NCBI GenBank assembly: GCA_947630475.1
Contig: CANRHR010000009.1
Location: 1 to 64,000 of the forward strand
Source: an uncultured Clostridia bacterium
GTDB lineage: Bacteria > Bacillota > Clostridia > Lachnospirales > CAG-274
Reading direction: 5' to 3'
Length of the DNA stretch: 64,000 bases
Both the position numbers and the translations under genes were made by a program. Below, piece by piece: positions 19,311-30,262 of the stretch. How positions within the stretch are numbered: position 1 is the first letter of the stretch; each line of letters starts with the position of its first letter. The notes beneath the pieces are model-generated. The model was given only the letters and a program-made list of their open reading frames with translations. It was not told the origin of the DNA and made no database searches.

Positions 19311-19547
19311 AAAATTAAACTTCGTTTAATTTAGACTGTCAATAAACCTAAATTTTGTTGAGTTTATAAGTTTTTAGGAGCGTCGCAGACATCAAATCCG
19401 CAGGTGGAAATCGCATTTTTGCCGAGGAAAAAGGCGAGTTTCAAGGCTTTTAAAGCCGCCGGAATGAGCCTTTTGTTCATCTGTTTAACTTCGAAAAAGT
19501 CCGAATGGACTTTTTCGAAAGTCAAAATTAAGCGAAGTTTAATTAAA
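19311..19547 (+). repeat. structured repeat family B, copy 1
   Basis: A core at about 19372-19520 matches, in opposite orientation, the segment at 29813-29953: shared blocks GCGTCGCAGAC, AAATCCGCAGG, GAGGAAAAAGGC, GTTTCAAGG and TCGAAAAAGTCC. Hairpins are GGCTTTTAAAGCC and TCGAAAAAGTCC-GAAT-GGACTTTTTCGA. The outer ends (19311-19333, 19525-19547) are AT-rich near-inverted repeats, each also a palindrome around CTTCG/CGAAG. No ORF. It occupies the polA-htpG gap; nothing else is visible there except the htpG terminator. Confidence 0.7.
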
Positions 19548-24195: not shown

Positions 24196-25050
24196 TTAAT
24201 CTCTGTCCATATCCCAAGAGATAATTTGACCGTCCGATGCGCTTATCTCCGCTGAATATTCAATATTTCCCTTATAAAATTCAATCTCATAAACAAGATT
24301 GCCATGCTCATTGTCAAGCTCTATCTTGCCGAATCTTACTTCACTTGCCGTAAGGCCTGCTTTCTGCAAAGCTATTTCTTTTGCTTGCTCTTCTGAAATT
24401 TGCTGATTTGAGCCTGTGTTATTTTGCTGCTGTGGAACATTATTTAATAAATTGCCTTCATTTTCAACCTTCCAAGAAACTATCTGACCGTCTGACACGC
24501 TTACTTCAGCCGAATATTCAGTATTTCCCTGATAAAACTCAATATCATAAACAAAAACGCCATGCTCATTGTCAAGATTTACTTTGCCGAATCTTACTTC
24601 ACTTGCCGTAAGGCCTGCTTTCTGCAAAGCTATTTCTTTTGCCTGCTCTTCTGAAATATCAAGCGGTATTGCTGTAACTTGTGTGGTATTGCCGCTTAAA
24701 GAACCTCCTGCGCTTGTATTGTCAGATGTATTGTTTATATCTGCAACAGATGTTTGATTTTCGCTTTTAAGCTCTATTTTGTTTGTGCTTGCATCCCAAG
24801 ATACGGATTTGCCCATAATCTCGCCTATTGCACGTATAGGCAGATATGTTGTGCCGTTATACAAAACAGGATCAACAATATCTCCATTTGCATTTTTAAA
24901 AATCTGCTTCTGACCATCGATTAAAACCGTAATATCCGGACGAAGCTCGGCTGAAATTTTAGTTATTGACGTTGCCGCACATGCGCCTATTGTAATACAT
25001 ACCGCACAAAGACAGAATACCATAAGCGTTGCCAAAATTTTCTTTTTCAT
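24196..25050 (-). CDS. exported protein with stalk (copper-amine-oxidase N-like) domain and two PepSY domains
   Basis: 284 residues from ATG 25050 (AAAGGAG nine bases upstream). Signal peptide about 1-27. Residues about 35-85 hold the stalk-type domain (VLIDGQKQIF, LYNGTTYLPIRAIGEIMGKSVSWD), followed by a Ser/Thr/Asn linker and two PepSY domains at about 132-199 and 218-284. The first 25 residues of both PepSY units are identical (ISEEQAKEIA...VRFGK) and their DNA (24199-24399, 24454-24657) is also nearly identical, a recent tandem duplication. PepSY often inhibits peptidases; the role here is unknown. Confidence 0.82.
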   Translation of the reverse strand: MKKKILATLMVFCLCAVCITIGACAATSITKISAELRPDITVLIDGQKQIFKNANGDIVDPVLYNGTTYLPIRAIGEIMGKSVSWDASTNKIELKSENQTSVADINNTSDNTSAGGSLSGNTTQVTAIPLDISEEQAKEIALQKAGLTASEVRFGKVNLDNEHGVFVYDIEFYQGNTEYSAEVSVSDGQIVSWKVENEGNLLNNVPQQQNNTGSNQQISEEQAKEIALQKAGLTASEVRFGKIELDNEHGNLVYEIEFYKGNIEYSAEISASDGQIISWDMDRD

Positions 25051-25123
25051 TTTAATCAGCTCCTTTTTAAAAATATATAACATATCAATTTACTATAGAT
25101 TATAAAGCAATAAAATGCTTATG

Positions 25124-27517: not shown

Positions 27518-28918
27518 TTAACCTCTGCTCCAACGTACTCCTGACGGAGTATCTTCAAGTATAATTCCTCTTTGTTTAAGCTCATCTCTTATTTTGTCGG
27601 CTTTTGCCCAATCTTTATTTTTTCTTGCAAGCTGTCTTTCTTCAATCAGAGCTTCTATTTCCTGCGTTTCGGGGTCTGCCTGTACATCTGTAAATTTTAT
27701 ACCCAAAATATCGCAAAGGGATTCAAGCTCATTTAAAATACTTTCAACAAAAGCCTTTGAGCTGTTTTCATTTATGGTAACATTTGCAAATTTTACAATT
27801 TCAAAAACAGCCGTTACCGCATCGGCAGTATTAAAATCATCATCCATTGCAGTTTCAAACATAATCCTAAATTTATCGGAATTTAAAAGCAAAGTCTTTT
27901 CTTCTTCACTCATGTCTTTATTTTCAGCGTTTTTTAGTATAAAGCTTATGTTTTTATGGCAGTTTTTAATTCTGTCAAGTCCGTTTCCTGCGGCATAAAC
28001 AAGCTCTCTGCTAAAATTGATGGGGCTTCTGTAATGACCGCTTACAATAAAGAAGCGAATAACATCATATGCAACCTCAGAAACAATTTCTCTCAGTGTA
28101 AAGAAATTTCCCTTTGATTTTGACATTTTTTCATTGTCTATATTTATAAAGCCATTATGAAGCCAATATCTTGCAAACTGCTTTCCGTTTGCCGCCTCGC
28201 TTTGCGCAATTTCATTTTCGTGATGAGGAAAAATCAAATCTTCCCCTCCTGCATGAATATCTATGGTATCGCCCAAATATTTTTTTGCCATAACCGAACA
28301 TTCTATGTGCCAGCCCGGTCTTCCGTCGCCCCATGGTGATTTCCAAAAAGGCTCTCCCGGTTTTTTAGGTTTCCATAAAACAAAATCCATAGGATTTTTT
28401 TTATTTTCATCAACCTTTATTCTTGCCCCTGCCTCAAGCTCATCTATATTTTTTCCGGAAAGCTTTCCGTAATCTTTAAATGATTTTGTATCATAAAAAA
28501 CACTTCCGTCAACAACATAAGCGTTGCCTTTGTCAATAAGAGTTTGAATCATATCTATAATGCTGTCCATCTCTTGGGTAACTCTTGGGTTATATGTTGA
28601 TTTTTTAACATTAAGCCCTTCTGCATCTGTCAAAGCCTCTTTTATATATCTTTCGCTTATTGTGTTCATATCTGTATTTTCTTCGTTTGCTCTTTTTATT
28701 ATTTTATCATCAACATCTGTAAAGTTTTGAACATAAGTAACCTCATAGCCCTTATATTCCATATATCTTCTTATTGTATCAAAAATAACATATGGTCTCG
28801 CGTTTCCTATGTGAATATAATCATAAACGGTAGGCCCGCACACATACATTTTAATTTTATTTTCTTCTAACGGAACAAATTCTTCCTTTTGTTTTGTTAA
28901 AGTATTGTAAAGCTTCAT
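27518..28918 (-). CDS. cysS: cysteinyl-tRNA synthetase
   Basis: 466 residues, class I synthetase. HIGH-type motif YIHIGNARP, KMSKSKGN, zinc-ligand Cys in YVCGPTVYD, and a C-terminal DALR-like region (ARKNKDWAKADKIRDELKQRG). Charges tRNA-Cys. Six bp after cysE in one transcript controlled by the cysteine T-box. Confidence 0.97.
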   Translation of the reverse strand: MKLYNTLTKQKEEFVPLEENKIKMYVCGPTVYDYIHIGNARPYVIFDTIRRYMEYKGYEVTYVQNFTDVDDKIIKRANEENTDMNTISERYIKEALTDAEGLNVKKSTYNPRVTQEMDSIIDMIQTLIDKGNAYVVDGSVFYDTKSFKDYGKLSGKNIDELEAGARIKVDENKKNPMDFVLWKPKKPGEPFWKSPWGDGRPGWHIECSVMAKKYLGDTIDIHAGGEDLIFPHHENEIAQSEAANGKQFARYWLHNGFINIDNEKMSKSKGNFFTLREIVSEVAYDVIRFFIVSGHYRSPINFSRELVYAAGNGLDRIKNCHKNISFILKNAENKDMSEEEKTLLLNSDKFRIMFETAMDDDFNTADAVTAVFEIVKFANVTINENSSKAFVESILNELESLCDILGIKFTDVQADPETQEIEALIEERQLARKNKDWAKADKIRDELKQRGIILEDTPSGVRWSRG

Positions 28919-28924
28919 TTTATA

Positions 28925-29599
28925 TTAATCCTCCTTTGCTTTTGCCGCTTTTAGCTCTGCTATGGCATCTTCAAGCTCATATACTCTTTTTCTCAGCTCA
29001 TCAAATTCAATTTCGACAGGATCCGGTATTCTTATCTGATCAAGGCAATCGGCAGGATTATCTACATCACAATTTGCACAGCCGCCGTATCTTTTTACAG
29101 ATCTTGCAGGTATACCTACAACAGTGCAATTTGATTCAACATTTTTTAAAACTACCGAACCTGCTCCCACTTTAACATTGTCACCTATTTTTATAGGGCC
29201 TAAAACTTTGCTTCCCGAACCTATCAAAACATTATTGCCTATGGTAGGATGTCTTTTTCCCGTTTCCTTGCCGGTTCCTCCCAAAGTAACGCCTTGGTAT
29301 ATAATTACATTATCGCCAATTTCGCAAGTTTCTCCTATAACCACGCCCATACCATGGTCAATAAAAACACCGTTTCCTATAACGGCTCCGGGATGGATCT
29401 CAATTCCTGTAAGCCATCTGGAAAATTGAGAAATCAGCCTTGCGGCAAAAAACATTTTTTTAATGTATAATTTATGAGCTATTCTATGATTTAACAGCGC
29501 CCAAAAGCTTGGATATAAAATAACCTCTATTGTGCTGTGAAGGGCGGCATCCTTTTTTTTAATGGTTTTAATTTCGCTTTTAATACCCAAGTTGTTCAT
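28925..29599 (-). CDS. cysE: serine O-acetyltransferase
   Basis: 224 residues. Helical N-terminal domain ([21 protein letters not shown]) and a left-handed beta-helix of hexapeptides ([36 protein letters not shown]) ending in a Cys-bearing tail. Makes O-acetylserine for cysteine synthesis. The ATG at 29599 touches the AAAGG site directly; an in-frame TTG at 29590 has better spacing and may be the true start. First gene after the T-box leader. Confidence 0.95.
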
Positions 29600-29614
29600 C
29601 CTTTCAAAATGGAT

Positions 29615-30053
29615 AAAAAAACTTCATCTCAATTTAGAGACGAAGTTTTATCCGTGGTTCCACTCTAATTAGGAGAAATCTCCCTCTTTATCGGCTTTAA
29701 CGCAGCCAAAACGCAGCAAACTACTAAAATTCATCCGCCGAGCTTAGAAATGCACTTCATAATCCATTTGCAGTAAAGACGATTTCAGCATTGATAATAT
29801 CAATTTACATATTCTCGAAAAAGCCCAGCCGGACTTTTTCGATAGCAAACAGAGGTATAAAAGGTTCGTTCCTGCGGGCTAAAGCCCTTGAAACTTGCCT
29901 TTTTCCTCGGCGGAAATAAATTCCGCCTGCGGATTTAAAGTCTGCGACGCTTTAAGTATATCAAAAAAACAAATTTTTTGATATACTGACATTGATAACA
30001 TCAATTCGTCTTTTCTCTGTAAAGAAATGGAAAATTACTCTTTTCCTCATCGC
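29615..30053 (-). promoter_or_regulatory. T-box riboswitch, cysteine specifier, with a repeat inserted in stem I
   Basis: Minus-strand leader of cysE-cysS. Stem I starts GCGATGAGG at 30053 with the AGAGTA motif; the lower helix CCATTT/AAATGG and upper helix AAAGACGA/TCGTCTTT can be paired by eye. The specifier loop holds TGC (29752-29754), a Cys codon. The T-box sequence AGAGTGGAACCACGG is at 29652-29666, followed by the terminator hairpin (29620-29630 with 29637-29647) and a T-run. The apical part of stem I is interrupted by about 184 bp of repeat family B between 29806 and 29989. Confidence 0.9.
29789..30006 (-). repeat. structured repeat family B, copy 2, flanked by 17-bp direct repeats
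   Basis: Core 29813-29953 is the reverse complement counterpart of the copy at 19372-19520. Direct repeats CATTGATAATATCAATT (29789-29805) and CATTGATAACATCAATT (29990-30006), one mismatch, flank the insert. Internal hairpins include GGACTTTTTCGA with its partner, GGGCTAAAGCCC, GGCGGAA/TTCCGCC and an AT-rich perfect 14-bp hairpin at 29955-29987. Confidence 0.75.
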
Positions 30054-30262
30054 TTTTATACTATTATATAGCTTAAACTTTATTTTTGCATATGTCAATA
30101 GAATAGAAATTTTTTATAAATTCTTTGTTTAATTTGTTAAATTTGCCTTAAAGTAAATATCTTATATTGATTTAGCTGAATTTTTAATGATTGCGCTTTT
30201 TTTGCATTTCAAAATGTGATAATATACTTATAAACAGATTCGATTTATTAAGGAGGCAAGCT

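Follow-up and report, generated by a model that had tools for sequence, protein, structure and literature searches.

The 64,000-nucleotide stretch of DNA analysed here (the window) belongs to a genome of 2.18 Mb in 48 contigs (G000) and carries, on its reverse strand, a T-box leader followed by cysE and cysS (Table 1). As in the cysteine-type T-boxes of Rfam family RF00230, the leader combines an AGAGA/UGxRA stem I with a TGC specifier, a T-box sequence and a terminator, with cysE-cysS downstream. Unlike them, it holds within the apical loop of stem I a 184-nt segment, very probably a mobile element, and a second copy of a palindrome. The insert splits the RF00230 match into two pieces of 61.1 bits (29830-29633) and 17.9 bits (30059-29859), neither of which reaches the gathering score of 93.

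Table 1. Features of the interrupted cysE-cysS leader, its insert and the second copy of the repeat in the window
Feature	Coordinates	Strand	Basis
cysE-cysS T-box leader, stem I apex interrupted	29600..30060	-	Rfam RF00230 in two pieces; motifs; orthologous leaders aligned
CCATTT, 5' strand of middle stem I helix; partner AAATGG 29769-29764	30025..30030	-	sequence, folding
AGAGA, intact; first of the two pentamers in the interdigitated T-loop motif	30014..30018	-	sequence; consensus per PMC7583486
AAAGACGA, 5' strand of apical helix	30006..30013	-	sequence, folding
Palindrome copy 1 (putative target-site duplication), AATTGATGTTATCAATG	29990..30006	-	sequence, genome search
Putative miniature IS1182-type element, 184 bp, no ORF	29806..29989	-	family of about 70 copies; termini common to IS1182 elements
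Perfect 13-14 bp hairpin GTATATCAAAAAATTTGTTTTTTTGATATAC at element 5' end, peculiar to the T-box copy	29956..29986	-	comparison of copies
Conserved motif GCGTCGCAGAC...ATCCGCAGG-hairpin-CCGAGGA, common to several genera	29904..29950	-	comparison of copies
Element 3' hairpin TCGAAAAAGTCC-GGCTGGGCTTTTTCGA, similar to the subterminal hairpin of IS1182 ends	29815..29842	-	comparison of copies
Palindrome copy 2 (putative target-site duplication), AATTGATATTATCAATG	29789..29805	-	sequence, genome search
TGAAA, intact; second pentamer of the T-loop motif (consensus UGxRA), adjoining the insert on its 3' side	29783..29787	-	sequence
TCGTCTTT, 3' strand of apical helix	29775..29782	-	sequence, folding
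Specifier codon TGC (Cys)	29752..29754	-	context GAAGTGCATT conserved among orthologous leaders
T-box sequence AGAGTGGAACCACG (antiterminator)	29653..29666	-	sequence, orthologous leaders
Intrinsic terminator AACTTCGTCTC-TAAATT-GAGATGAAGTT with U run	29615..29650	-	sequence, folding
cysE, serine O-acetyltransferase	28925..29599	-	TIGR01172 and NF041874 above cut-off
cysS, cysteine--tRNA ligase	27518..28918	-	TIGR00435, 604.8 bits
Second window copy of the repeat, upstream of polA	19311..19544	+	element at 19332-19523, flanked by the palindromic copies AAAATTAAACTTCGTTTAATT and AAAATTAAGCGAAGTTTAATT

A T-box leader with an interrupted stem I

The original prediction held that the specifier, antiterminator motif and terminator are kept, and all three were found in the leader; the TGC specifier fits the regulated genes. 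Both pentamers of the stem I apex, which follow the AGAGA and UGxRA consensus (PMC7583486), are also present, with the spacing between them enlarged by the insert. In the alignment of orthologous leaders, the position of TGAAA is taken by GCTGAAA, GCTGTGA or similar. The apical helix pairs AAAGACGA (30013-30006) with TCGTCTTT (29782-29775). A promoter and terminator scan of the leader called no terminator and missed even the T-box terminator itself, so it is uninformative on premature termination within the insert. Elsewhere in the window, a PepSY-domain gene (24196-25083) contains two 186-nt direct repeats (88%) at 24214-24657, a domain duplication.

The predicted direct repeat around about 184 extra bases was recovered as CATTGATAATATCAATT at 29789-29805 and CATTGATAACATCAATT at 29990-30006, identical at 16 of 17 positions and separated by 184 bases. 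A search of the whole genome for the 17-mer with 0 or 1 mismatch returned only these two flanking copies. The repeat is itself palindromic (ATTGAT-nnn-ATCAAT), a property that becomes informative in light of the repeat family described below. Against the Rfam 15 families, the window gave only the T-box pieces (E up to 1), and the related elements examined had no match at or above the gathering score; for want of an Rfam match, we rejected the idea that the insert is a known RNA, HEARO-like or other.

In relatives, the orthologous cysE T-box leaders have short apical loops that contain neither the insert nor the palindrome, as in L104 (GGGACA-TATATGCTGAAAT-TGTCCC), rather than a long native apex, and the ten other T-boxes of the same genome lack the element. 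A native, lineage-specific expansion of the T-box apex, with no mobility involved, is hard to credit and has a very low probability: T-boxes do bear many insertions of unknown origin (PMC7583486), and one cysE leader from another family of the order (L117, G040) has an unrelated stem I apical expansion of about 70 nt, but the sequence inserted here recurs as a repeat of 70 copies that has the ends of a transposon and duplicated flanks. Within the L117 expansion, the distal-loop motif recurs twice in partial form, as TTGGTGAAAG and TTGGGTGGGAG.

A repeat family between duplicated hairpins

The core of the insert had been noted as identical to a repeat upstream of polA, and the match was found there (Table 1). 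A search of the genome with this core gave at least 40 scored matches, and the core pattern with up to 3 mismatches occurred at 68 places, against 0 for the reversed-pattern control. The family, of about 70 copies, is therefore spread over the whole genome and not confined to leaders. A repeat family of this size can mislead short-read assembly, and the genome is in 48 contigs; yet the sequences on either side of the insert are complementary halves of one stem I (the apical helix and CCATTT/AAATGG), and each flanking 17-mer has the other as its only match in the genome. We consequently regard misassembly at the repeat as extremely improbable.

When the copies were aligned in register, many elements were seen to sit between two copies of a hairpin specific to the locus, for example AAAGCCTGCCGTTTTTAACGGCAGGCT, then CAGACTGTC...TCGACATTC, then AAAGCCTGCCGTTTTTAACGGCAGGCT again. 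A direct repeat abuts both ends in 32 of the 57 copies with both ends located, including the T-box copy, compared with 2 of 675 control pairs made of flanks from different copies; the other 25 of 57 have no flanking repeat by these criteria. All but one of the 32 repeats form hairpins of 5 bp or longer (33% of control segments do so), with a median stem of 9 bp and a median repeat length of 26 nt (range, 17-35), and most are terminator-like. Since the 17-bp repeat of the leader is palindromic, the T-box copy obeys the rule of its family, namely that the target duplication is a whole hairpin, and it is this property that identifies the probable insertion mechanism.

Terminators are likely the usual targets, because only 9 of the 67 copies that could be classified lie between divergent genes, among them the T-box copy, as against 28 between convergent and 30 between tandem genes. 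We looked for other copies interrupting known structured RNAs and found none, only neighbors: copies adjoin a THF riboswitch and tRNA pairs, which are left uninterrupted (L050:1666-1765, L062:1616-1783, and L002:1943-2119).

By the family rule, the ancestral T-box would have held a target hairpin, and the expected pre-insertion site reads AAAGACGAATTGATnTTATCAATGCTGAAATCGTCTTT; the genus is represented by one genome, and the loops of relatives have no palindrome. An alternative is that the palindromes are part of the element, with no target duplication and a native apical loop as short as in relatives. Consistent with it, the relatives' loops have few bases before GCTG, and the loop reconstructed here is about 12 nt longer. 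This alternative is nevertheless improbable, given that the flanking repeats of the 31 other copies vary by locus and are nearly all local hairpins, and that the 17-mer is absent elsewhere in the genome, with or without the element.

Relationship to IS1182 transposons

Terminal inverted repeats of the TCAGACTGTCAAAAA class are common to these miniature elements and to elements of related genomes that encode PF13751/NF033551 transposases. The proteins of loci L151 and L153 are IS1182 transposases, scoring 417 and 400 bits, respectively, with NF033551 (cut-off, 270) and carrying PF05598 and PF13751. At L151, a 23-bp hairpin (CCGCCGCATTATAAATGCGGCGG) occurs three times with zero mismatches, in the order hairpin-IS1182-hairpin-MITE-hairpin, the IS1182 element lying between copies 1 and 2 and the MITE between copies 2 and 3. 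This tandem arrangement links the two elements through a shared target and a shared mode of duplication. The whole arrangement lies at L151:1361-3186, and its IS1182 element looks intact.

The same core is present in 24 of the 48 genomes of the bacterial family, and a query from a second genus gave weak matches also in one other family of the order. Copies in other genomes have the same ends and, again, duplicated hairpins. PF13751 transposases exceed the cut-off in 15 of the 48 genomes, and several of them lie between TCAGACTGTCAAAAA-class ends, beside hairpins. In G000, neither PF13751 nor NF033551 was found. A mobile MITE would be expected to share its genome with a transposase, which a stranded one does not need; the elements here may thus be stranded, unless the assembly happens to lack the transposase gene.

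The insert, 184 bp long, has no transposase gene and is one of about 70 copies in its family. From these features, the ends shared with IS1182 elements and the tandem case at L151, we therefore call it a putative IS1182-type MITE. The original prediction of a mobile element inside a riboswitch is thus supported, and the present analysis adds to it the type of element and the nature of the repeat, a duplicated hairpin. Both the mobile identity and the hairpin duplication are well supported, and we hold them with high confidence.

The nearest known systems are IS1272 and TnSha1. Like the present family, they involve an IS1182-type transposase and target inverted repeats, often terminators, without sequence specificity (PMC5678879, PMC4923244). 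IS1272, a member of the IS1182 family, removes the stem-loops that it targets without duplication (PMC5678879, PMC4923244); in these systems the stem-loop is deleted or replaced with no target duplication, whereas the present family duplicates the whole stem-loop. Moreover, the present element is a MITE of 184 bp and encodes no transposase. Stem-loop replacement is not what we observed, as 31 of the 57 copies with both ends located have the hairpin repeat on either side. Whole stem-loop duplication is the outcome that Wan et al. modelled as "pathway b" (PMC5678879), and the present family fits it. In the literature searched, which is a part of the whole, we found no report of whole-hairpin duplication by IS1182-type transposition, only of deletion. 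The roughly 30 natural cases collected here, together with the tandem IS-MITE with three identical hairpins, thus represent whole-stem-loop duplication by this type of transposition.

The family is also reminiscent of pneumococcal BOX, RUP and SPRITE and of other bacterial MITEs, which are short, structured, non-coding interspersed repeats that can join transcripts, according to the covered text of a MITE review (PMC10969869). In that text, riboswitch-like roles are only speculated upon, IS1182 is not mentioned and whole-hairpin duplication is not described. No described case of a MITE or transposon insertion inside a riboswitch was found in the literature searched.

Proposed insertion route and function of the interrupted leader

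We propose the following overall explanation, which we consider very likely: the insert is an IS1182-type MITE, non-autonomous, whose targets are DNA hairpins and whose insertion duplicates the entire hairpin. Support for it in the sequences consists of the TCAGACTGTCAAAAA-class ends shared with IS1182, the locus-specific flanking hairpins and the same layout at the T-box. The target would have been a small palindrome in the apical loop of stem I, just 5' of the TGAAA pentamer, and repair would have copied this hairpin to both sides of the element. The two copies, which can pair because the duplicated unit is a hairpin, would then do so, making the element an extra arm of stem I without displacing the apical helix or either T-loop pentamer. 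Duplicating a hairpin instead of cutting it would explain why such insertions are tolerated: a duplicated terminator still leaves a terminator on each side, and the arm of a riboswitch can pair anew.

When stem I is folded alone, the minimum-energy structure contains the apical helix, pairs the two 17-mers and places the element past them as a branched domain. The energy penalty for imposing both stem I helices tested is 0.8 kcal/mol whether or not the insert is present. In the unconstrained full-length leader, other pairings are favored over stem I, by about 6 kcal/mol when the insert is included and about 5 kcal/mol when it is left out, so folding energies are weak evidence. Stem I is predicted still to close, with the repeats pairing into an extra arm. 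It had been proposed that removal of one repeat copy and the insert restores a closed stem; the apical helix exists as claimed, but excision is not needed, since closure is predicted with the insert as well.

The T-box copy is the most divergent of the 52 aligned copies (nearest neighbor, 81%), and its ends are degenerate, with 3 mismatches each. It also has the most stable fold of the 52 (-71.4 kcal/mol versus a mean of -57.9 and an SD of 7.1), partly because of the perfect hairpin at its 5' end; a top rank of one in 52 is only suggestive. At 29956-29986, this end has turned into a hairpin unlike that of other copies, perhaps by a template-switch mutation.

An old insertion with all T-box motifs intact suggests that the leader has been kept under selection. 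We think that the leader probably still senses uncharged tRNA-Cys, possibly with altered affinity for the elbow. It could instead be that the insertion broke tRNA sensing and left a decaying T-box, in which the terminator alone, or some other signal, determines read-through into cysE-cysS. The insert does adjoin the elbow-binding motif, whose disruption cuts tRNA affinity up to 60-fold (PMC7583486), and its strong hairpins could misfold or stall transcription. We judge this loss of sensing rather unlikely: the copy looks old (81-89% identity to the others), yet the leader has kept both pentamers (AGAGA and TGAAA) intact along with its specifier, T-box sequence and terminator, and the predicted cost of closing stem I is the same with and without the insert. 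The leader offers a test case for whether a mobile insert of 184 nt beside the tRNA elbow-binding motif can be tolerated, or even adopted, by a complex riboswitch.

A further reading is that the element is a structured RNA with its own function and that the T-box copy was adopted as an extra regulatory domain, giving a naturally composite riboswitch. It rests on a nearly invariant 47-nt motif and on covarying helices, and we consider it improbable. Over 52 copies, the consensus fold is -35 in the sense and -25 in the antisense orientation, and paired columns hold 120 G-U versus 23 A-C combinations. Two-sided pair changes occur, such as C-G/A-T and A-T/G-C at columns 91-132 and 92-131. Because the G-U count stems largely from a few columns and the copies share ancestry, this signal is a lead and not proof. 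The first 47 nt of the element are nearly invariant across genera, while the remainder has been replaced. The motif at 29904-29950 and its homologues in L119-L148 may represent an unrecognised RNA or a protein-binding site.
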